NCBI RefSeq assembly: GCF_001458735.1
Contig: NZ_CZQA01000015.1
Location: forward strand, 1 to 64,000
Direction of reading: 5' to 3'
Length of the DNA: 64,000 bases
DNA from: Candidatus Nitrospira nitrosa
GTDB lineage: Bacteria; Nitrospirota; Nitrospiria; Nitrospirales; Nitrospiraceae
Part shown: in pieces, positions 11,470-52,842 of the stretch
How positions within the stretch are numbered: the stretch's first letter is position 1
Layout: each line of letters starts with the position of its first letter
Notes under the pieces: generated by a model
What the model saw: only the letters and a program-made list of their open reading frames with translations
Database searches by the model: none
Told to the model about the DNA's origin: nothing
Program-made: the position numbers and the translations under genes

Positions 11470-12627
11470 ATGAAAGACTTTCTGCCGTTTCATAGGTCTG
11501 ATGTGGGTGAAGAGGAAGTCGCTGAAGTCGTTGAAGTTCTTCGATCCGGCTGGCTGACAACGGGTCCTAAGGTGCGAGAATTCGAGAGAGAATTTGCTGC
11601 GATGGTTGGGGCCCAGCATGCCATTGCTGTTAATTCTTGCACGGCTGCTCTCCATCTTGCCCTTGAGGCCATTGGCATAGGTGAAGGTGATGAGGTCCTG
11701 GTTCCAACCATGACGTTTGCGGCGACAGCCGAGGTAGTGACGTACTTTAGGGCCAAGCCTGTGTTACTGGACTGTACTGAAGGTACCTTGAACCTGAACA
11801 CGGATTTGATTGAGAAAGCCATCTCGAAGAAGACAAAGGCGATCATTCCTGTCCATTTTGCAGGACATCCGTGCGATCTCAAGCCGATTCATACGATTGC
11901 GAAAACGAATAACTTGCATGTGATCGAAGATGCGGCACACGCGCTACCGGCACGATATCACGGGAAAATGATTGGGAGTATTTCTGATATCACATGCTTT
12001 TCCTTCTACGCGACAAAGAATATTACTACCGGCGAAGGCGGAATGATTACTACGGATAACGCTGAGTGGGCTGCCCGTATGCGGATGATGAGTTTACACG
12101 GACTCAGTCGTGATGCGTGGAATCGCTATTCCTCGAAGGGGTCATGGTATTACGAAATTTTGTCACCCGGTTTTAAGTATAACTTGACGGATATTGCTGC
12201 TGCCCTCGGGTTGGCTCAGCTGAAGAAGTGCGATCGGTTTTGGAAGGGGCGCGAGCAATATGCGGCTAGGTATCGGGAAGGGTTTAAAGATCTGCCTGAG
12301 ATTGTCTGCCCTGAAGCTGCAGCACACGTGCAACATGCGTGGCATTTGTACGTGATCCAGTTGGAGTTGGACCGCCTGCGGATTAGCCGTGATGAGTTCA
12401 TTCGTCAACTTCAGGAAGCTGGTGTTGGGTGTAGTGTGCATTTCATCCCCCTTCATTTGCATCCCTATCACCGAGATAAGGGAAGCTATCGACCTGAAGA
12501 TTTCCCAGTCTCGAGCAAGATGTTCCAGCGGATCGTTTCGTTGCCGTTGTATTCAAAGATGACGGAAGATGAGATTGATCGAGTCATCGGGATCGTTCGT
12601 GATCTTGTGACGAGGAGCCGACGCTAA
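11470..12627 (+). CDS. DegT/DnrJ/EryC1/StrS aminotransferase (PglE/ArnB-like)
   Basis: The protein has 385 residues. The fold-type I PLP site is complete: NSCTAALHLAL (55-65), Asp154 in IEDAAHALPA, and Schiff-base Lys183 in YATKNITTGEGGM. That last motif and CSVHFIPLHLHPYY-like ending are typical of the 4-amino-sugar branch (PglE, PseC, ArnB). It should aminate the 4-keto product made by the dehydratase encoded next to it. Its stop codon overlaps the ATG of the next gene by one base, so the two are translationally coupled. An AGAGAGGAG RBS-like stretch precedes the ATG. Function in making a UDP-4-amino-6-deoxy sugar is strongly suggested by context. Confidence 0.9.
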   Translation: MKDFLPFHRSDVGEEEVAEVVEVLRSGWLTTGPKVREFEREFAAMVGAQHAIAVNSCTAALHLALEAIGIGEGDEVLVPTMTFAATAEVVTYFRAKPVLLDCTEGTLNLNTDLIEKAISKKTKAIIPVHFAGHPCDLKPIHTIAKTNNLHVIEDAAHALPARYHGKMIGSISDITCFSFYATKNITTGEGGMITTDNAEWAARMRMMSLHGLSRDAWNRYSSKGSWYYEILSPGFKYNLTDIAAALGLAQLKKCDRFWKGREQYAARYREGFKDLPEIVCPEAAAHVQHAWHLYVIQLELDRLRISRDEFIRQLQEAGVGCSVHFIPLHLHPYHRDKGSYRPEDFPVSSKMFQRIVSLPLYSKMTEDEIDRVIGIVRDLVTRSRR

Positions 12628-15173
12628 TGAAACGTACGTGTGATATTTGTTTGGCAACTCTTGGATTGCTCATCACCTCGCCGCTCCTGGCTCTGATTGC
12701 TCTGTTGATCAAGCTTGACTCGTCAGGGCCTGTGATCTTCCGGCAGATTCGTGTCGGGCAAGGATTCCGCCCATTCGCGATTCGAAAGTTTCGCACAATG
12801 GTCGCGACTGATTCAGTGGGCGGCCCACTTGTCACTGTTGGTCGAGATCGTCGTATCACGAGGGTTGGGCATATTTTGCGGGGGCTTAAGCTTGATGAAT
12901 TGCCACAGTTATGGAATGTCCTTCTAGGGGATATGAGCCTTGTGGGGCCAAGACCGGAAGTTCCTCGTTATGTGGAGTGTGCACGTGCGGAATTTGCCGA
13001 AGTGCTTACGGTGCGACCTGGTATCACGGACTTGGCGTCGTTGAAGTACATTAATGAAGCCGCAATTCTCGACGCTTCGGCGAACCCTGAGGAAGAGTAT
13101 CAGCATAAAGTTCTTCCGGAAAAGCTACGGCTGGCAAAGCTCTATATCCGCCATATGTCTTTGCGGCTTGATTTCGCCATTATCTTGCAGACCGTGCTTC
13201 GTATTGCCAAATTGCCCCTTGTGGTTCTTACGCTTCCGGAGCTCAAGGCTGCAGTTGAGGTTTCGACCGATTCTCCATGGTCAGGCTTGTCTGCTTTCAT
13301 TATCAGATGGAGGCGGCCCATTATTGTTGTAATCGACGTAGGGCTTATCATTCTGGCTAACTACCTAGCATTTTTCCTGCGATACGATGGGAATATTCCC
13401 CAGGGCGAGCGCTACGTCTTTGAGCAGACTGTACTGGGGTTGGTTGCCGTCAGGGGAGTTGCATTTGCTTTGTATGGCCTGAACGAAGGTTTGTGGCGAT
13501 ACACCAGCTTGTGGGATCTTCAGAATATTCTGAAGGGTGTCCTGGCGAGCACAGTCGCGTTTGTCGGCTGGGTTTATTGGGTGATGGGGATTTACAGCTA
13601 CCCTCGTTCCATATTTGCTATCGATGCCATACTCGTAGTGGGGTTCCTTGCAGGCGTGAGATTATCCTCGAGAGTTTTGCGCGATAAAGTCGTATTTCAG
13701 AAACGGCGAAGGGTATTGGTGATTGGTGCTGGAGATTCGGGCGAGCGGGTTGTGCGAGAGATGAAGACGCGCAGCGTATTTAATTGCCAACCTGTTGGGC
13801 TTGTTGACGACAATGGTCTACTCCTCAATCAGCGTATTCACGGAGTTCGCGTGCTGGGGGCCATGCAAGATATCCCTAAGCTGATGGAAACGCTCAAGCC
13901 AGAGGTTGTTGTGGTTGCGGTGCCCAATCCGACACCGGAGTTCCTTCGTGACCTGGTCATCAAGCTAGAGCCATATGATGTGTCAATTAAGACCTTGCCT
14001 GGCAAGGAAGAGCTTCTCACGGATCAAAGCGCTGTTAGTCAGATTCGAAATGTGTCCATCCCCGATCTTTTGTCTCGTGCCCCTGTGAATCTCGACAGTC
14101 GTGCCACGAGACAGCTAGTGCGAGATAAAACGGTCATGATTACTGGTGCAGGTGGATCGATTGGGTCAGAATTGGCTCGCCAAATTGCGTCGTTCGAGCC
14201 CAAGGTGCTGTTGTTGTATGAGCGTCACGAGAACAGTCTCTATAACATCCATAAGGAGCTTGATGATAAGAAGTATCCCTTCTCAATTATTCCATTGATT
14301 GGGGATATTACAGATGCACAAAGACTTTCGGCCGTACTTGAGCGATACCGTCCGCAGATTTTGTTTCATGCAGCGGCGCACAAGCATGTCCCTCTTGTTG
14401 AGGCGAATCCTGTTGAGGCCGTGAAGAATAATTGCATTGGCACGCGTATCGTGGCTGAAGCGGCCAGTCTTTATGGAGTAGAGCAATTCGTCCATATTTC
14501 GACTGACAAAGCAGTCAACCCATCGAGTGTGATGGGTGCGACCAAACGAGTGGCTGAGCTCGTTATTCAGGACATTGCCAGAACCAGCCGGACGAGATTT
14601 CTTCTCGTTCGGTTTGGAAATGTTCTCGGCAGTAGTGGGAGCGTCTTGCTTCGTTTCCAGGAACAGATCAGATCTGGTGGTCCGGTGACGGTGACGCACC
14701 CGGAGATCCGACGCTACTTCATGCTGATTCCGGAGGCGGTGCAGCTGGTTCTCCAGGCGGCCACTATTGGGGAGCAAGGTCATACCTACATTCTCGATAT
14801 GGGGGAGCAAATCAAAGTGCTGGATATTGCTCGAAGTCTTATTCGTTTGTCCGGACTTGTCCCCGGTAGAGATGTTCCTATTCGATTTGTAGGGCTTCGT
14901 CCGGGAGAGAAGCTGTATGAGGAGTTAGTCGGTGAGGGAGAGATCGCGGTGAACTCCCCGCTGGACAAGATTTTGCAAATCCGGACGGTCAATCCTCTCG
15001 ACTTCGACATATTTCGAGAGAAACTATCGGCGCTGGAAGTTGCCAGCTCTCATGATGAGCCCATTGTCGTGCTTGAACACCTGAAGGAAATTGTTCCGAT
15101 GTTTGCGACAGCGGGTACGGAGTCTGAACTGGAAGCCATTCCAAGCGGAGTCGATTCTTTCGTGAAACAGTGA
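12627..15173 (+). CDS. Fused phosphoglycosyltransferase and 4,6-dehydratase
   Basis: This 848-residue protein joins two normally separate enzymes. Residues 1-200 are a PglC/WcaJ-type phosphoglycosyltransferase: a membrane-inserted N-terminal helix, KFRTM (54-58), catalytic Asp90-Glu91 in LDELPQ, and GDMSLVGPRPE. Residues about 228-848 are a PglF/WbpM/CapD-type polytopic dehydratase: four hydrophobic segments (230-345), a CoA-binding-like domain with RVLVIGAGDSGERV, then the SDR domain with GAGGSIGSE (507-515) and the WbpM-type STDKAVNPSSVMGATK, where Met636 replaces the usual Tyr and Lys640 is kept. The first half loads a sugar phosphate onto undecaprenyl phosphate; the second makes the 4-keto-6-deoxy precursor. 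The aminotransferase for the intervening step is encoded immediately upstream with a one-base overlap. Confidence 0.9.
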   Translation: MKRTCDICLATLGLLITSPLLALIALLIKLDSSGPVIFRQIRVGQGFRPFAIRKFRTMVATDSVGGPLVTVGRDRRITRVGHILRGLKLDELPQLWNVLLGDMSLVGPRPEVPRYVECARAEFAEVLTVRPGITDLASLKYINEAAILDASANPEEEYQHKVLPEKLRLAKLYIRHMSLRLDFAIILQTVLRIAKLPLVVLTLPELKAAVEVSTDSPWSGLSAFIIRWRRPIIVVIDVGLIILANYLAFFLRYDGNIPQGERYVFEQTVLGLVAVRGVAFALYGLNEGLWRYTSLWDLQNILKGVLASTVAFVGWVYWVMGIYSYPRSIFAIDAILVVGFLAGVRLSSRVLRDKVVFQKRRRVLVIGAGDSGERVVREMKTRSVFNCQPVGLVDDNGLLLNQRIHGVRVLGAMQDIPKLMETLKPEVVVVAVPNPTPEFLRDLVIKLEPYDVSIKTLPGKEELLTDQSAVSQIRNVSIPDLLSRAPVNLDSRATRQLVRDKTVMITGAGGSIGSELARQIASFEPKVLLLYERHENSLYNIHKELDDKKYPFSIIPLIGDITDAQRLSAVLERYRPQILFHAAAHKHVPLVEANPVEAVKNNCIGTRIVAEAASLYGVEQFVHISTDKAVNPSSVMGATKRVAELVIQDIARTSRTRFLLVRFGNVLGSSGSVLLRFQEQIRSGGPVTVTHPEIRRYFMLIPEAVQLVLQAATIGEQGHTYILDMGEQIKVLDIARSLIRLSGLVPGRDVPIRFVGLRPGEKLYEELVGEGEIAVNSPLDKILQIRTVNPLDFDIFREKLSALEVASSHDEPIVVLEHLKEIVPMFATAGTESELEAIPSGVDSFVKQ

Positions 15174-32576: not shown

Positions 32577-32915
32577 ATGTTGGATATCCGTATACTTGAA
32601 TATCTTGATCTGCAGGCTCGCTCACCGTTTTCTATTTGGTTTGAGGGGCTGAATGCTGAGGCGGCTGCTAAGGTAACAACAGCGCTCTATCAGATTACTA
32701 CTGGCAATTGGTCAAATGTAAAGGGTGTGGGGTCAGTTGTCTTTGAGCGAAAGATCCATGCGGGGCCTGGGTATCGAATCTATTTTGGTAAGGACGGTGC
32801 CCAACTCGTTATTCTATTGGGAGGCAGTACAAAGCAGAGACAGCAGCAGGCGATTAAGACGGCCATAGAGCGATGGGCAGACTACAAACGTCGTAAGAGT
32901 AGCAAGATAGGTTGA
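32577..32915 (+). CDS. HigB-type (Gp49/TIGR02683-like) toxin
   Basis: This 112-residue protein resembles the 'addiction module killer protein' branch of the RelE/HigB superfamily. Family traits are FSIWFEGLNAEAAAKV, TTGNWSNVKGVGSVVFERKI, HAGPGYRIYFGKDG and ILLGGSTKQRQQQAIKTA. These proteins cleave mRNA on the ribosome. It is followed after 16 bp by the antitoxin gene, the toxin-first order usual for HigBA. There is almost no room for a leader if the adjacent -10 is used, so translation could be from a very short leader. Confidence 0.85.
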   Translation: MLDIRILEYLDLQARSPFSIWFEGLNAEAAAKVTTALYQITTGNWSNVKGVGSVVFERKIHAGPGYRIYFGKDGAQLVILLGGSTKQRQQQAIKTAIERWADYKRRKSSKIG

Positions 32916-32931
32916 CGTTTAGGGAGGTAAC

Positions 32932-33252
32932 ATGGCATTGACGAGGGAATTTAGGCATACCGTAGTGGCCCGAGTACAACGTGATCCTCGATTTCGTGAA
33001 GTTCTATTTACTGAGGCGCTCAATGCATATTTTTCTGGAGATACGACTGTGGGAAAGGCAATGTTGCGGGATCTTGTCAATGCAACGGTCGGGTTCGAAG
33101 AACTAGCCATGACTCTGAAAAAACCCAGTAAGAGTTTACATCGGATGTTGGCACCTCGTGGTAATCCCAGCACGGACAATTTCTTTAGCATTGTCTGCGC
33201 CCTCCAGAAGAAGGCGCGTGTGAAATTACGTGTGACCGCAAAAGCGAGTTAA
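32932..33252 (+). CDS. HigA-like antitoxin
   Basis: This 106-residue protein is the putative partner of the toxin just upstream. It contains [20 protein letters not shown] and [15 protein letters not shown], then a helix-turn-helix-like [19 protein letters not shown], as in the addiction-module antidote family that pairs with TIGR02683-type toxins. AGGGAGG lies upstream of the ATG. It should bind and neutralise the toxin and repress the operon, possibly via the palindrome at 32553. Confidence 0.85.
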
Positions 33253-33256
33253 CCGA

Positions 33257-34546
33257 ATGCGTAACAGGCGAATGATCGACATCTATACCGATGGAGCGTG
33301 CAGTGGGAATCCTGGGCCTGGGGGCTGGGGTGTCTTGGTGCGTGACGGGAAGACGGAAACGGAATTCTCAGGTGGCGAGCCGGCGACGACAAACAACCGG
33401 ATGGAGTTGCTCGCCGTGATTGAGGCTTTACAGTCGTTTTCTCAGCCGGTGCAGGCCCGAGTCTACACCGATTCGCAGTATGTGCAAAAAGGCATCAGCG
33501 AATGGATTCATAGCTGGAAGCAGCGTGGGTGGAAGACTGCCGGCAAGGAGCCTGTCAAGAATGAGGATCTGTGGCGGAGGCTTGATACGTTGGCTGCCAG
33601 CCATACGCTCGAATGGCATTGGGTCAGGGGGCATAACGGGCACCCTGAGAATGAGCGGGTCGATGCGCTGGCCCGAGCCGGGCTTGAGCAGGCACGCCGA
33701 GGTAGGAAACCAGCCGATCGGTCAGCGGCGGTTCCTGTCGAACCGCCTCCTCCTTCAGCCAAGACGACGGCGATCGTCGAGATTCAGCATGCGACGGTCT
33801 ATCGAGGGGACACCTGTGTCTTCTCAGATTTTTCCTTTGCGCTCTATAAGGGTGAGCATGCGGCCATCCTTGGCCCGAATGGGGCAGGGAAATCCACGTT
33901 GCTCAAGTTGTTGTCGGGTGAAGTGCACGCGATGCCGAACGATGAGACGCGGTGGGCGCTTTTCGGCGACGAACAGTGGAATGTCTGGGATGTGCGTAAA
34001 CAGATCGGTATTGTGTCGCATGACCTGCAACGAGACTATTTGATCTGTGCTGAAGGGCTGAATGTGATCTTGTCAGGATTCTATGCGAGCAACGATACCT
34101 ATGCCTATCAAGAGTTCAGCAAGACACAGATGACCAGGGCGTATGAGGTGATGCAGGAATTGGGAGTGATGGACTTGTCTGGTCGCCGCTTCGGCCATAT
34201 GTCCACCGGGGAGCAGCGGCGGTTTCTATTAGGCCGAGCCCTCGTACATGATCCGCCGGTATTGGTGTTTGATGAGCCAACCAGCAGTCTTGATCTCAAG
34301 GCCTGCTTCCAATATCTCGATCTGCTGCGCGCCCAGATGGCCAAAGGAAAGACCGTTCTCCTTGTGACCCACCATCTTCATGAAATCCCACCGGAGATCG
34401 ACCGAGTCATCTTCCTCAAAGAGGGGAACATTGTTGCGGACGGTCCCAAGTCAAAATTACTGACCAGTGAGCAGGTCAGCCGACTCTTCGATAGTAAAAC
34501 CACGCTTTTGCAAGCCAATGGATGGTATCAGGCTCTGCCTGGGTAA
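33257..34546 (+). CDS. rnhA: Fused RNase HI and ABC-type ATPase
   Basis: This 429-residue protein combines two unrelated enzymes. Residues 1-148 are RNase HI with the full acidic set Asp12, Glu50, Asp72, Asp136 ([39 protein letters not shown]); it should cut RNA in RNA-DNA hybrids. A Pro/Ala-rich linker (150-170) leads to an ABC ATPase (172-429): Walker [10 protein letters not shown] (206-214), signature MSTGEQRR (315-322), Walker B VLVFDE (335-340) and H-loop THH. The ATPase lacks membrane segments and resembles ModF/YlmA-type soluble ABC proteins. The frame is open throughout the junction. ATG 33257 or 33272 could be the start; the RBS is weak. Each domain looks intact. Confidence 0.88.
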
Positions 34547-34647
34547 TACCGTACTCGCTTCTCTGGCAATGCCTCAAAACACCGTTTTTTGACGAAATTT
34601 TGTTCGAGAGCTAGGCTTCTGATGCTGATCTTTCTTGTAAACCAGGT

Positions 34648-35541
34648 ATGCATCAAGGCTTCTCGAAATTCACGTTGCGGCGGAACCTGACCTTTCTCCT
34701 TGTCATTTGTCACTTTTGTACAATGGCCTCTACCCTTCTTAGCCCCGCCTGGGCTGAGACCTGGGTCTGTCCCAGGCCAGGGCAAGCAGATCTGTATACG
34801 GACCGTGAATACCCGGGCTGTCGGCAGCTCGGGGACGGAAAGACGTATTCCCCGCTGACTGTATCCCCAGCGTCAAAGGCGCCGCCAAGCCGCAATCTTT
34901 CCCCATCGGTTGCGAATCCCGTCTCGTCAGAATTTTCACAGCAACCATCGGGGAGAAAGCCCTTGCCCTTCTCAGACGTCACATTGTCTTTGCCCCTCTT
35001 GAGTGTTGGGCAAGATCGGGTTGGTGTGATTACTGGTTCCTGGAGGGGGTATGTGGCGCAACTTGCCGTCGGGTACAAGGCTGATGGGAAGGGGCCGGAG
35101 ATTCTTGGAGACTCAAACTTGATGCTCGTCTCTGCCCTTTCTTTTCAGACAGCGGTCGCCGTTGCCACCAAGGCGGTGGGGTACGATCCTCGCTATCTCA
35201 CGGTCCGTATCTTGGTTCCGACGCGAATGGATGGGCCCAGTGCCGGCGGGATTTTTGCCGTGGGCATTGCGGCAGCCCTACTTGGTGATTCGATCCGCCC
35301 GGATATCTGTATGTCGGGGACAATCGAATCGGACGAGCAGATTCAAGCCGTGGGGCGACTCGTGGATAAGATGAATGCTTGTCGGGAACTGAGAAAGACC
35401 ACCATGATTGTGCCCGATGCGTTGGATAACAGTCACCTGAGCTTCACCGGGGCGGAGCGGTCCATTCAGGTGATCGAGGTGCATACACTCGGGGAGGCCT
35501 ATAGTGCCGCTACCGGGCAAGCTCTGCGTCACGTTCCGTAA
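34648..35541 (+). CDS. Secreted Lon-type (S16) protease domain protein
   Basis: The protein has 297 residues and starts with a signal peptide (about 1-36, LTFLLVICHF, cleavage after PAWA). A short Cys-containing segment (TWVCPRPGQADLYTD) resembles the DUF4124 type. The C-terminal half is the proteolytic domain of Lon without any ATPase: Ser198 in MDGPSAGG and Lys241 in VGRLVDKMNA. Their separation of 43 residues equals that of Ser679 and Lys722 in E. coli Lon. It should therefore be a Ser-Lys dyad protease acting in the periplasm without ATP. No substrate is evident. It is followed after 59 bp by another secreted protein gene. Confidence 0.8.
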   Translation: MHQGFSKFTLRRNLTFLLVICHFCTMASTLLSPAWAETWVCPRPGQADLYTDREYPGCRQLGDGKTYSPLTVSPASKAPPSRNLSPSVANPVSSEFSQQPSGRKPLPFSDVTLSLPLLSVGQDRVGVITGSWRGYVAQLAVGYKADGKGPEILGDSNLMLVSALSFQTAVAVATKAVGYDPRYLTVRILVPTRMDGPSAGGIFAVGIAAALLGDSIRPDICMSGTIESDEQIQAVGRLVDKMNACRELRKTTMIVPDALDNSHLSFTGAERSIQVIEVHTLGEAYSAATGQALRHVP

Positions 35542-35600
35542 AACTGTCACGATCCGGAATGCTTCATGAGCAGCATATTTCACAAAGAGGAGGCAACGTG

Positions 35601-35966
35601 ATGAACCCCACCATACGCGTGATGGCGGTGACGCTGATGGGCCTAGCCGGGCTGGTTTCCGTCGTACGAGCAGCGGATCCGGTCTCCATCAGCTCTCTGC
35701 AGGCCTATCCCGAAGCGTACAAGATGAAGGTTGTCCAGATCACGGGGATGGTCAGTGGCTATCAGATGCACCACTTCATTGGGAGCAACTCGAAGCTGGA
35801 GAAGTGTATTCAAAACTTTCTCGTTGATGACGGGAGCGGAATGATCGAGGCCAGCTATGCGGCGCTCTGTCAGATGGGGCCGGTCCTTCTCAAAGACGGC
35901 GATCAGGTCACGATCGAGGGGCATTATTTGGGGACGTTGGACGTGAAAGCGGTGCAGAAGTATTGA
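35601..35966 (+). CDS. Secreted small OB-fold-like protein
   Basis: This 121-residue protein has a signal peptide (1-25, LMGLAGLVSVVRA). The mature part begins ISSLQAYPEAYKMKVVQITG, which resembles the nucleotide-binding-like OB-folds in periplasmic proteins, and also parallels the segment HELLSTPESYQGKVVILGG of the Slp lipoprotein at 38640. Cys residues in LEKCIQNF and YAALCQ may form a disulfide. GAGGAGG lies upstream of GTG-ATG; the ATG at 35601 is taken as start. It is likely co-transcribed with the secreted Lon-like gene. Function is unknown. Confidence 0.72.
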   Translation: MNPTIRVMAVTLMGLAGLVSVVRAADPVSISSLQAYPEAYKMKVVQITGMVSGYQMHHFIGSNSKLEKCIQNFLVDDGSGMIEASYAALCQMGPVLLKDGDQVTIEGHYLGTLDVKAVQKY

Positions 35967-36079
35967 AAAATATCATGCCAGAATTCGTACTCCTGTCTCC
36001 TGCAGAAGATCAGCAATCAAATCTTGACAAACAATCCACTGACGCGATCATCTTTACTTGTTCAAGTCTTGAAACAATA

Positions 36080-36385
36080 CTAATCTCCAATAAATCTGAG
36101 ATAGAGGTGAGGTTTGGCTCGGCATTTTTCGGTGAGGGTTAGCAGCTTGGTTAGGAATTGTTTATCCTCGTTCGTTTTAGCGATATCAGCTATGCGATGT
36201 AGCTCTTCTATGAGCACTGGTATCTGAAGCCGATTGAAAATCGTGTTTCCGTACAGATCGATAAAGCGGAGGCAAGCATACGAACTATTCGTGGCTTGGG
36301 GAATTGCAAGGAAGAGAAAAGTATCTAGCAGCAATTCTCCTTCGGGGTTACCGCTTTCGTCTTCTAACTGAATCGTTATGCCCAT
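36080..36385 (-). CDS. Hypothetical protein
   Basis: This 101-residue protein is acidic at the N terminus (ITIQLEDESGNPEGE) and otherwise helical (RLQIPVLIEELHRIADIAK, LTKLLTLTEKC). It has no signal peptide or membrane helix. I recognise no family. The length, composition and lack of a better frame support a real gene, although the RBS is poor. It might be an immunity- or regulator-like cytosolic protein; nothing in the context decides. Confidence 0.5.
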   Translation of the reverse strand: MGITIQLEDESGNPEGELLLDTFLFLAIPQATNSSYACLRFIDLYGNTIFNRLQIPVLIEELHRIADIAKTNEDKQFLTKLLTLTEKCRAKPHLYLRFIGD

Positions 36386-48215: not shown

Positions 48216-50216
48216 CTAGGCGTGATGTTGAAATAGTGGTCGACCATCGCTGCCTGTGCGCGTGACGCACACATGATCTGTATAGGAAGGCACGAGTGAG
48301 GCATTGTCTTGGACTTGATGCTCGATAAAGACCAGTTCATCGCAATACTGATGGCTATTCGTGTGAGCGATGGTGATAGACACAGTTGCCCGATGTTTTC
48401 CTCCCACCGGTCCGACGATGTCAGAGATCTGTTGAGTAGCGATGGAAATCTTTGGTGTCTCGTGCTTGTAGGGGTACAAGACGGTCAGAAAGCACGTGCT
48501 TGAGGCATCTTGCGTCAGCTGGACGATCGGCGCCCGTTCTTTCTTGCCGTACGAAATGGAGACAAAACCTTCCTCGATGGAGGGGCGCACGGTCGGCACC
48601 AGCGGCTGTGCAAGGATTAGCTTGGGCGAGTAGACTGACAAGGTGTCGTGCGACCGCGAGAGCGAAACCTCCCCTTGTGCGGATGGTGCGAAATGGAAGT
48701 GAAGGTCATACCGGTGGGATTCGTCTGCACGCAGGAGGTCAAAAATGATCCAGTACTCTCCGTTGATGAACAGCACCTTCCGTTCATGAATCACCGGATA
48801 CTCATAGCTACGCGCTATACCATGCAGATAGTCGAGTCCGGGCTTGCTGACAAATGCGGCCACCGTTCGTTCAGGGTCCGGCCCTGAAATCTTGAACCGA
48901 TTCCTTTTCCACTCATACCGAGTTTGATTTCGCCCATCGACCAGCACAGTATTGTGGTAGGCGGTGCTACGAAAGATGCCGCGCCAGTTGACGGGGCCTG
49001 ATTCATCATAGGTATAGCGACCTGGGTCCACGATCAGTGGTCTGCCATAGGCATAGGCTTCGAAACTGAATAGATCGAGATGTCCATGATTGCCGGCGCC
49101 GAGAGGTCCGCCATCAAAGATCAAATAGCGTTCGTCCTCATAGGGTGCATCCTGGTCACCCCAGCCGCTTCGCAATACATAATAGCCGCTATGGGGAAAT
49201 CCTTTTGATCGCACAGTTGGAGCGTGTCCTTTTTCTCCTCGCGACGCGACGTACAAGAGGTCTTCCCCTCCATAGAGGTCATAGCCCTGCTGCAAGAGGT
49301 CCAGGAAACAGCGGCTATCGCCATCGCTGAGGGCGGGGATCAGGCCGTCTGGTCGATGGGAATAGAGCGAAAACTCCAAAGCCTTCCTGATCAGCTGATC
49401 AAACTGCTCCGGCATTTCGATCTGGTTGAGGCGCGCCAGCCTATTGATCCAGAGATAGTTCTTGAGTACCAAATGGTGGTAATCGGTGGATTGCTCACAA
49501 TGGACACCATCGGGTTGCAGATCAAATTGAATGTTTTTGACCAGCTCATCTCGCGACCACCGGAGCCATTCGGGGGATTCAACGAATTCGGGGAACACGA
49601 CCGCAGCCAAAAAGATCGCGCAGAGCTCCAAGGTCCGGTGGTTCCGAGACGGCGTGACATGGTCTCGAAGGTACGAGACCTGGTGGTGCAGCGATTCCAG
49701 AAAAGAACGATAGAAATCTGGGGTGACGCAGCTCGGTAGGGTAGCGTTCACAAAATAGTAGTGCGCGAAGATCCAATTCTGAATCCGCCGTCCTGCAACG
49801 TCGCTGGGGAGGAAATCGAGCGGAACCGTTCGAATCCAAGAACTCGTGAGATCAACCCATTTCTCGACGTATCGACGATCATCTGTTTCACGATAGGCCA
49901 TACCGAGCCCGACGGCGTAATAGAATTTATGCAGCAGGATCAGCCATTCCTGGTCGCTGCTGAGGTTCGTGAGCCAGAGCGGTGATGCGGTAAAGATGTG
50001 ACGTTCGCCGTTGAACTCAAACTCATTCATCAGTATGTCGTCCATCTTCGGGCGTGCCGTTTCACCCGCATCAGGGACCGGGAAATAGTGGATCGTCGTC
50101 CTGGTCTGGAAATGGTCTAGTAAGGCGTCAACGGTCAAGTCTTGGAAGGGTTCTGTAAAGAGGTGCCGGGAATCCATCTGTTCATTTGAAGGGTGCTGAC
50201 TAGTGGCAAGCTGCAT
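48216..50216 (-). CDS. Heparinase II/III-family polysaccharide lyase-like protein
   Basis: This 666-residue protein has an N-terminal alpha-toroid (about 60-290, e.g. FYYAVGLGMAYRETDDRRYV) and a C-terminal beta-sandwich (about 320-620). NHGHLDLFSFEAYAYG with RPLIVDPGRYTYDE is the heparinase II/III signature, and YHNTVLVDGRNQTRY follows. Such enzymes cleave uronic-acid polysaccharides (alginate, heparin-like). No signal peptide is visible. In synthesis operons they may trim or edit the polymer. The ATG at 50216 overlaps the preceding glycosyltransferase gene by 17 bases; the frame is open further upstream inside that gene but without homology. Confidence 0.85.
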   Translation of the reverse strand: MQLATSQHPSNEQMDSRHLFTEPFQDLTVDALLDHFQTRTTIHYFPVPDAGETARPKMDDILMNEFEFNGERHIFTASPLWLTNLSSDQEWLILLHKFYYAVGLGMAYRETDDRRYVEKWVDLTSSWIRTVPLDFLPSDVAGRRIQNWIFAHYYFVNATLPSCVTPDFYRSFLESLHHQVSYLRDHVTPSRNHRTLELCAIFLAAVVFPEFVESPEWLRWSRDELVKNIQFDLQPDGVHCEQSTDYHHLVLKNYLWINRLARLNQIEMPEQFDQLIRKALEFSLYSHRPDGLIPALSDGDSRCFLDLLQQGYDLYGGEDLLYVASRGEKGHAPTVRSKGFPHSGYYVLRSGWGDQDAPYEDERYLIFDGGPLGAGNHGHLDLFSFEAYAYGRPLIVDPGRYTYDESGPVNWRGIFRSTAYHNTVLVDGRNQTRYEWKRNRFKISGPDPERTVAAFVSKPGLDYLHGIARSYEYPVIHERKVLFINGEYWIIFDLLRADESHRYDLHFHFAPSAQGEVSLSRSHDTLSVYSPKLILAQPLVPTVRPSIEEGFVSISYGKKERAPIVQLTQDASSTCFLTVLYPYKHETPKISIATQQISDIVGPVGGKHRATVSITIAHTNSHQYCDELVFIEHQVQDNASLVPSYTDHVCVTRTGSDGRPLFQHHA

Positions 50217-52842
50217 GGGTTTCCTGGTGGTTGGTGGTGGTCCCAACAGTTTCCATCCGAAAAAGGTCAAAGAGCTGTTTCGTGGTCTGATTCGAGTCAA
50301 AGAGTCGGCACATCGTCTCACGCCCTGCGTGAGCAAGACTGTTGCGGAAGTTGGAGTCGACCAACAGTTCTTCGATGGCTTTCGCGAGTGCCACCGGGTC
50401 GCGTGGTGCGACCAGCAGGCCATTACGTCGATCTTCAATAATTTCCGGAATGCCGGAGACTAATGTGGAAATCACAGGGACTCCGGAGGCCATGGCTTCG
50501 GCGAGGACGTTCGGGATGCCGTCTCGATCACCGTTGTCCACGATATGACAGGGGAGTACGAAGACCGTCGCCTCTTGATAGATCGCACGGAGCGCGTCTT
50601 GTGTCACACCCGGTTCGATTGAGATTACTTCTTCAAGCCCATACCGGCGAATCAGGTCCTGTACCACATCGGTCTGCTCATCCGGTTCACCGACGATCCG
50701 GCAGCGGAACGGGATTCCGTGCTCATGAATGAGCCGACAGGCCTCGATCAAAAAGGGAAACCCTTTCTTTTCGACGAAGCGTCCGACCGACAGGATTGTC
50801 GGGATTGCCAGCGTCTCTCGGTCAATGGCGGGAGCGAAACGCGTCGTATCGACTCCATGATAGATGGTGTGTATGGGTGCACTCTGTGGGGAGACACCCC
50901 GTAAGTGATGATGGTTGGCTGCTGTGCAGGTCACGACGAACTTCGCTCGACGTAGCTTAAGTGACAGCAGATCGCCGGGGTTCAGTTTAGGTAGATAAAT
51001 GTCCTTGGCGTGGGCGGTAAAGCTGAAGGGGAGGTCGCTCAGCATGCTTGCGAACATCGCCATGGTTGTCGCGCCATGGCAAAAGTGGGCGTGCAGATGA
51101 CGGATGTTTCCTGAAACGAGAACGCAGTCGGCGATCGCACCAGCACGAATAAAATCCTTGTAGAACACTTTCTTGGGCCACGAGAAGAAACTGCTCCTAT
51201 AGCTCAAGCTCAATATCCAGGCTTCCCATGCGGCATGCAGATATCGGCGCGGAACGGTACGAATGAGTCGAGCATGACTAGAACAATATCGGGGAAGATT
51301 TGCGATCAGCCAGGACAGAAATCCGCTGTCTGTCTTCTCGCTATCTTCGGGCAGATAGGTGAGCGGTGAAATAAGAGCCTTTCCATGAGGACCGGTACAG
51401 TTCGTTTCGCCTTGAAACGCAGAGAAGAGGCGAAGCTGAAGCCCCATCTGCTCCAAGAGCAGAATTTCATTGTTGATGAAGGCTTCCGATCGGCGAGGGA
51501 ATCCCTTCAAGATATAGCCGATCGCGCTGTCGGACGAGTGGGTTGCTATCTTGTCTTGGTCTGGATTCGAGAAGGGTTCTACTGGCTGCGATAGCGCTGC
51601 ATCCGTCGGTGCCGTTCCCGTGAGAAAAAGCGCTTTAAGATGGTGGCTTGCATAGCCGGAGGAAAAGTGTTGCTCAATGGTCTCACGCCCGGCTTGTCCT
51701 AAGCGTTGCCGGATTGCCGGATTATCCAGAAGATGGGCGAGGGCCAGCGCTAGCGCTTCAGGGTCGCGCTGGGGAACAAGAAGACCGTTGTGATCGTGTC
51801 GGACAAGTTCCGGAATACCTGAAACTCCAGTCGTGACGACGGGGAGTCGGCATGCCATGGCTTCCATGAGGACGTTCGGAATCCCGTCGCGATCGCCGTC
51901 CTGAGCGACCTGACAGGGAAGGGCAAAGATGTCGGCACGCTGGTAGAGCCCCACGACTTCTTCGAGTGGTTGTTGTCCCATCAACATGACGAGATGTTCG
52001 AGATGGAACTCTTGAATCAGCGCTTCCATAGCGGATTGCAAGGGACCGAATCCGACGATGCAGCAGTGAAACCGGTAGCCACGGATGTTCAGCAAATGGC
52101 AGGCGTGGATGAGCGTGAGTAGCCCTTTCTTTTCTCGAAAACGTGCGACACTTATGATCGCGGGGATCGCCGACGGTGCAGTAGGATGATCGTGCTGTAG
52201 CCGGTCGAATCGGGCCAGATTCAGGCCGTGGTAGAGACGAAGCAGCGGGGTACCGTTGTCCGACAGACGTTGGAGGTACTGCCGATTATCCTCGGTGCAG
52301 GTAATGACGAATTCCGCATGGTGCATTTTCCGTTGGAGTGTGGCTGGTGGCGTGAGGAAGATATCCTTTGCGTGGCAGGTCATGCTGTACGGAATGTCTG
52401 TCAGCCGGTGAGCCAGTTCAGCGACGCTCGTGGGGGCATTCGCAAAGTGGACGTGGAGGTGACCGATGCGTTGGTTGAGAAGCGCTACAGCGAGTGAACC
52501 GGCCTGGAGAAACTTTGGCCACGAGGGCTGCTCGGTGGATCGACGCCAAAATTGAACGGTTGAGACATACCGCCGAGGGGAGATGATGAAGAGTCGAAGA
52601 TGGGCCCATAACGGATTGTGGCGCAAGGTGCCGAGCGAGCGAGGCAGATAGGTGACCGATGCGCGGACTTGGCCGACCAAATCGTGGGTGACGGGATCGG
52701 TAGGCGGCTCAAGGGCGAAGACCGACAAGTCCAGTCCCAGGGCTTCCAAGTCTAAGACTTCTTGAAGAATGAAGGTCTCTGAGACCTTGGGAAAAACCTT
52801 GACCAGGTACCCAATTGTTTTCGTCGAGGGCTGGCTGAGCAT
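50200..52842 (-). CDS. Tandem GT4-GT4 glycosyltransferase fusion
   Basis: This 880-residue protein contains two full GT4 enzymes in a row. Copy 1 (about 8-405) has GYLVKVFPKVSETFI, HVHFANAPTSVAELA, ISVARFREKKGLLTLI and VLMEAMACRLPVVTT. Copy 2 (about 440-870) has GYILKGFPRRSEAFI, HAHFCHGATTMAMFA, LSVGRFVEKKGFPFLI and VLAEAMASGVPVIST. The two are clearly paralogous and each retains the C-terminal E-x7-E region (PNVLMEAM, PNVLAEAM). A linker of about 30 residues separates them. It could add two successive sugars or act as a polymerase with alternating donors. It starts three bases after the preceding gene. Confidence 0.9.
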   Translation of the reverse strand: MLSQPSTKTIGYLVKVFPKVSETFILQEVLDLEALGLDLSVFALEPPTDPVTHDLVGQVRASVTYLPRSLGTLRHNPLWAHLRLFIISPRRYVSTVQFWRRSTEQPSWPKFLQAGSLAVALLNQRIGHLHVHFANAPTSVAELAHRLTDIPYSMTCHAKDIFLTPPATLQRKMHHAEFVITCTEDNRQYLQRLSDNGTPLLRLYHGLNLARFDRLQHDHPTAPSAIPAIISVARFREKKGLLTLIHACHLLNIRGYRFHCCIVGFGPLQSAMEALIQEFHLEHLVMLMGQQPLEEVVGLYQRADIFALPCQVAQDGDRDGIPNVLMEAMACRLPVVTTGVSGIPELVRHDHNGLLVPQRDPEALALALAHLLDNPAIRQRLGQAGRETIEQHFSSGYASHHLKALFLTGTAPTDAALSQPVEPFSNPDQDKIATHSSDSAIGYILKGFPRRSEAFINNEILLLEQMGLQLRLFSAFQGETNCTGPHGKALISPLTYLPEDSEKTDSGFLSWLIANLPRYCSSHARLIRTVPRRYLHAAWEAWILSLSYRSSFFSWPKKVFYKDFIRAGAIADCVLVSGNIRHLHAHFCHGATTMAMFASMLSDLPFSFTAHAKDIYLPKLNPGDLLSLKLRRAKFVVTCTAANHHHLRGVSPQSAPIHTIYHGVDTTRFAPAIDRETLAIPTILSVGRFVEKKGFPFLIEACRLIHEHGIPFRCRIVGEPDEQTDVVQDLIRRYGLEEVISIEPGVTQDALRAIYQEATVFVLPCHIVDNGDRDGIPNVLAEAMASGVPVISTLVSGIPEIIEDRRNGLLVAPRDPVALAKAIEELLVDSNFRNSLAHAGRETMCRLFDSNQTTKQLFDLFRMETVGTTTNHQETHAACH

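Follow-up and report, generated by a model that had tools for sequence, protein, structure and literature searches.

The window considered here, a stretch of 64,000 nucleotides from Candidatus Nitrospira nitrosa, contains on its forward strand, at 34648..35541, an open reading frame for a protein of 297 residues (start ATG at 34648, stop TAA at 35539-35541, the span including the stop codon), which the reading frame, Pfam, alignment and predicted fold together mark as a putatively exported protein with a Lon-type (S16) domain. The minus-strand ORFs overlapping this gene are short, mechanical by-products. After 59 bases, and on the same strand, there follows the ATG (35601) of a partner gene (35601..35966), which is preceded by a ribosome-binding site (AAAGAGGAGG, 35584-35593) and encodes a 121-residue protein with a signal peptide (MNPTIRVMAVTLMGLAGLVSVVRA, followed by A) and a predicted OB fold (pLDDT of the model 86.6). 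The site count in a promoter and terminator scan of 34300-36200 was no higher than in shuffled sequences. Upstream, at 33257-34546 (+), a single ORF joins an RNase HI part (160.7 bits) to an ABC ATPase part (88.3 bits), a fusion conserved across Nitrospira, with half-matches on different contigs in one genome (G014). Between this gene and crcB lies an apparent insertion at 32577-33252 (+), consisting of a HigB/Gp49-like gene (a weak Pfam match) and a small gene after it, which looks like a toxin-antitoxin pair and occurs in only one other of the loci compared (L038). Elsewhere in the window, judging from the translations, a long ORF at 12627-15173 (+) reads as a fusion of a sugar transferase to a FlaA1/CapD-type dehydratase, and another at 50200-52842 (-) as two tandem glycosyltransferases.

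The C-terminal part of the Lon-like protein (residues 107-297; 34966..35538, +) scores 29.6 bits against Lon_C (PF05362; Pfam gathering score 21.1), which places it in family S16 / Lon_C. Among solved structures its top sequence match is the proteolytic domain of E. coli Lon, to which residues 195-256 align without gaps, such that Ser198 (35239..35241, +) corresponds to the nucleophile Ser679 and Lys241 (35368..35370, +) to Lys722, with the Lon spacing of 43 residues. Both the domain and the dyad had been proposed in the initial annotation and are borne out. The Ser and the Lys are invariant in all aligned homologs, which span several subfamilies and are in some cases only ~30% identical. Likewise, the Lon domain has a dN/dS of 0.04-0.12, obtained, as throughout, by counting synonymous and non-synonymous changes between the window gene and seven orthologs, a procedure in which some comparisons are saturated and short segments are noisy.

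The same annotation had also stated that there is no AAA+ domain, and in agreement with this no AAA+ family in Pfam matched the 297-residue protein at E <= 10; likewise, its scores against the NCBIfam equivalogs of LonA and LonB fall far below the respective cut-offs (40.9 vs 678.8, 36.7 vs 723.3 and 22.4 vs 608 bits). The AlphaFold2 model, with 28 orthologs in the alignment, is mostly good for residues 107-297 and poor, with low pLDDT, for residues 31-102. In this model the dyad-bearing domain superposes on the E. coli Lon domain 1rr9 with Z 22.7 and an rmsd of 2.0 A over 172 residues (Foldseek, VIA-align). Next after the Lon domains, at Z 18-20, come RadA and BrxL, proteins of the same fold, and for this reason the fold alone is no proof of protease activity.

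The N-terminal residues 1-36 (34648..34755, +) are hydrophobic and fast-evolving, with a mean frequency of the commonest residue of 0.32-0.39 among 28 aligned orthologs, as against 0.87 for both the Cys segment and the Lon domain, and with a dN/dS of 0.5-1.0 against the seven orthologs, a noisy value for so short a segment. Since this variable hydrophobic stretch ends, in most of the 28 orthologs, in an A-x-A-like site directly ahead of a conserved E/D-T-W, we read it, as the initial annotation did, as a signal peptide, with predicted cleavage between SPAWA and ETW. The N-termini of the paralog families are likewise hydrophobic and export-like. A lipoprotein was considered and rejected, there being no lipobox and the cysteines at 21 and 24 lying unconserved inside the hydrophobic stretch.

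The predicted mature protein begins with a segment of 30 residues (37-66; 34756..34845, +) bearing two cysteines, C41 (34768-34770, +) and C58 (34819-34821, +), which are invariant in the orthologs and embedded in a conserved W-x-C ... Y-x-D ... C motif; a dN/dS of 0.05-0.12, noisy in view of the segment's length, points to strong purifying selection. The Cys-bearing segment previously noticed at this end of the protein is thus real. We call it DUF4124-like rather than DUF4124, because the window protein itself has no Pfam match to that family (PF13511). Matches, mostly weak, were found in 9 of 18 relatives, one paralog (L027) exceeding the cut-off with 24.3 vs 22 bits along almost the entire model and the other eight being weaker. 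Proteins that look exported but have no Lon domain carry a similar segment (in L064 and L071). In Neisseria, the DUF4124 protein TfpC is predicted to be periplasmic and is required for type IV pilus maintenance (PMC7593972). Between this segment and the Lon domain lies a variable Ser/Pro-rich linker (residues 67-106; 34846..34965, +) with a dN/dS of 0.25-0.49 and low pLDDT over 31-102. Taken as a whole, the dN/dS profile is what one expects of a signal peptide followed by a small conserved segment, a spacer and a domain under constraint. As a separate observation, other Nitrospira (L064, L065, L071) possess a third family of Lon_C proteins that stand alone and look exported, of ~220-250 residues and without the Cys pairs, and in these loci a separate, exported-looking DUF4124-like two-Cys protein without a Lon domain is encoded within a few kb of the Lon_C gene.

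A second pair of cysteines lies inside the Lon domain and flanks the catalytic Lys, one on each side: Cys221 (35308..35310, +), two residues before Ser223, the equivalent of Thr704, and Cys245 (35380..35382, +), four residues past Lys241. Their co-occurrence is strict. Both are Cys in every member of a clade comprising the window family and the DUF4124-like paralogs, including two members whose aligned sequence is without the N-terminal Cys motif, and both positions hold other residues in the remaining families and in the host genome's own Lon. The clade is supported at 97/95 in a tree in which long branches meet in this very clade. This pattern suggests that C221 and C245 could form a disulfide within the Lon domain.

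Some 30 Nitrospira genomes carry orthologs with 57-81% identity, which, together with the low dN/dS of the Lon domain, marks the ORF as a real gene. Among 395 sampled genomes of the phylum, only this genus and one other genome of the family yielded full-length matches, and the weaker relatives stayed within that family and its order. Among the genomes searched the architecture thus appears only in Nitrospirales, a statement that rests on the relatives, on the 395-genome Nitrospirota sample and on a contig scan of a kind that finds close relatives only. The other Lon_C matches in the host genome lie within frames of 490-860 residues, which by their length fit Lon proteases and RadA. No match to the gene was found in plasmid and phage collections, and hence there is no sign there of a mobile or phage origin.

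Wherever an ortholog locus reaches past the Lon-like gene, the partner lies 3' of it, even in L059, where the gene upstream of the pair was not seen. Its phyletic pattern is the same: among the Nitrospira genomes compared (G000-G022), a full-length partner is present in 11/11 with the Lon-like gene and in 0/12 without it, one of the latter (G019) keeping a truncated piece. The order in G019 is RNase H-ABC gene, partner residues 66-120 and FUN14-like gene, an arrangement which a single deletion would explain by removing the Lon-like gene together with the front of the partner. At three empty sites (L095, L097, L098) the RNase H-ABC gene adjoins the FUN14-like gene directly, with neither gene between. 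Because of this joint scar, the empty sites and the shared phyletic pattern, the Lon-like and OB-fold genes behave as one module, present or absent together at one site. That both are kept in every carrier argues for a shared function, the physical linkage making their co-occurrence non-independent evidence. Dependence of the module on the upstream gene was rejected, as the RNase H-ABC gene persists where the module is absent. The neighbourhoods of the paralog families (alanine dehydrogenase, or a Rieske-type oxygenase and a KefB-like gene) offer no common functional clue. A weak second relative of the OB-fold protein (E ~1e-10) is encoded far from the Lon-like gene in the host genome (G000:C11:68770-69015) and in two others (G006, G011).

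How does this protein relate to known Lon-type proteases? The earlier statement that these are otherwise cytoplasmic or membrane-bound ATP-dependent enzymes was too strong, as YlbL and SepM are extracytoplasmic and AAA-less and LonC is ATP-free. YlbL of B. subtilis is a membrane-tethered PDZ-Lon protein without an AAA+ domain that is thought to act outside the cell; its Ser and Lys are needed in vivo, and its anchor-less form is inactive in vitro (PMC6051672), for which reason the activity of an isolated exported Lon domain is not to be assumed. SepM of S. mutans, composed of a transmembrane segment, PDZ and Lon and likewise AAA-less, cleaves the CSP-21 peptide (PMC11197336). The window protein resembles both in having a C-terminal Lon-type Ser-Lys domain, no AAA+ module and an extracytoplasmic location, here predicted from sequence. 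However, in place of their transmembrane anchor and PDZ it has a predicted cleavable signal peptide and the DUF4124-like two-Cys segment. No PDZ family in Pfam matched at E <= 10, a sequence test applied to a protein whose residues 31-102 are poorly modelled, and the SepM-family equivalog of NCBIfam scores 13.2 bits vs a cut-off of 200.

With LonC of Meiothermus/Thermus, which degrades unfolded proteins without ATP (PMC3391209), the window protein would share an ATP-free proteolysis limited to unfolded substrates. LonC, however, retains an AAA-like domain in degenerate form, carries insertions specific to LonC and has not been described as an exported protein, whereas the window protein has only 297 residues and lacks these parts. 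Membership in LonC was rejected, since the CX3GLX(G/E) insertion that follows the Lys-bearing helix (PMC3391209) is absent, residues 195-256 being gapless against E. coli Lon. From LonA and LonB, with which it shares the S16 fold and the dyad, the protein differs in lacking the AAA+ module carried in their chain. A 2008 survey (PMC2605481) listed one PDZ-Lon_C and 39 proteins with Lon_C as a single domain; the latter resemble the window protein in having no other annotated domain, and the sections of the survey considered here mention neither export nor a Cys segment nor a partner gene. The literature on Nitrospira and Lon protease contained nothing on this protein, and the combination of signal peptide, DUF4124-like Cys segment, Lon_C and co-inherited exported OB-fold partner is absent from the limited literature searched. 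Exported motor-less Lon domains are thus already known from YlbL and SepM; what is new is the DUF4124-like rather than PDZ segment, the C221/C245 pair and the two-gene module with an exported OB-fold protein.

The reading we favour, with a probability of about 0.72, is that the Lon-like protein is a periplasmic, ATP-independent serine endopeptidase using the Lon-type Ser198/Lys241 dyad. The protein would be exported by Sec and cleaved after Ala36, and its Cys pairs would stabilise it in the oxidising periplasm. The dyad would be active and, there being no unfoldase, would cut only peptides, tails or unfolded segments, as SepM and LonC do. On its flexible linker the DUF4124-like segment may replace the PDZ of YlbL and SepM as the docking or regulatory part, and the co-inherited OB-fold protein may be an adaptor, inhibitor or substrate of the protease. 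A more elaborate and distinctly tentative version makes of this a redox-controlled periplasmic protease module, in which a C221-C245 disulfide would tie the strand before Ser223 to the Lys-bearing helix and so switch or lock the dyad, the DUF4124-like segment would dock substrates, and the exported OB-fold protein would be an inhibitor, adaptor or substrate dedicated to the protease.

It may be that an isolated Lon domain has to oligomerise, a point that counts against an active protease. It is conceivable, though quite unlikely, that the Lon domain here serves for binding or as a scaffold instead of cutting proteins, like those of RadA and BrxL, which also match the model well. The lack of measurable activity in anchor-less YlbL (PMC6051672) is in keeping with such a role, but the invariance of Ser and Lys in all aligned homologs, when most other positions vary between subfamilies, argues against it. 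A different question is where such a protease would reside. An uncleaved N-terminus would leave it as a signal-anchored enzyme on the periplasmic face of the inner membrane, like YlbL and SepM, a view that concerns location only and is compatible with activity. The single helix 7-29 in the AlphaFold model, the transmembrane-like start of one relative without the Cys segment (L028) and the anchoring of the known analogs all fit; however, the A-x-A-like site immediately before the conserved mature start in most of the 28 orthologs, and the fast evolution up to that site, make an anchor unlikely.

Self-cleavage by a Ser-Lys dyad is established for LexA/UmuD and birnavirus VP4. By analogy, the dyad could cut the linker (67-106) in cis and thereby free the two-Cys segment, so that the protein would act just once, to mature its own exported Cys peptide. 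Two conserved parts joined by a fast-evolving, low-confidence linker would suit such a design, as would the existence of the DUF4124-like segment without Lon in L064 and L071, but no cleavage motif is conserved in this linker across the orthologs, and we regard self-processing as very improbable.

If the favoured endopeptidase is indeed active, a Gram-negative nitrifier would possess an exported Lon protease in which a DUF4124-like Cys segment takes the place of a PDZ or an ATPase. With its natural empty sites and the scar of a joint deletion, the clean module of two genes provides a simple handle on the role of an exported Lon domain, and it may also assign a function to a domain of unknown function. 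The view of Lon-type proteolysis as confined to ATP-driven machines is, in this context, corrected.
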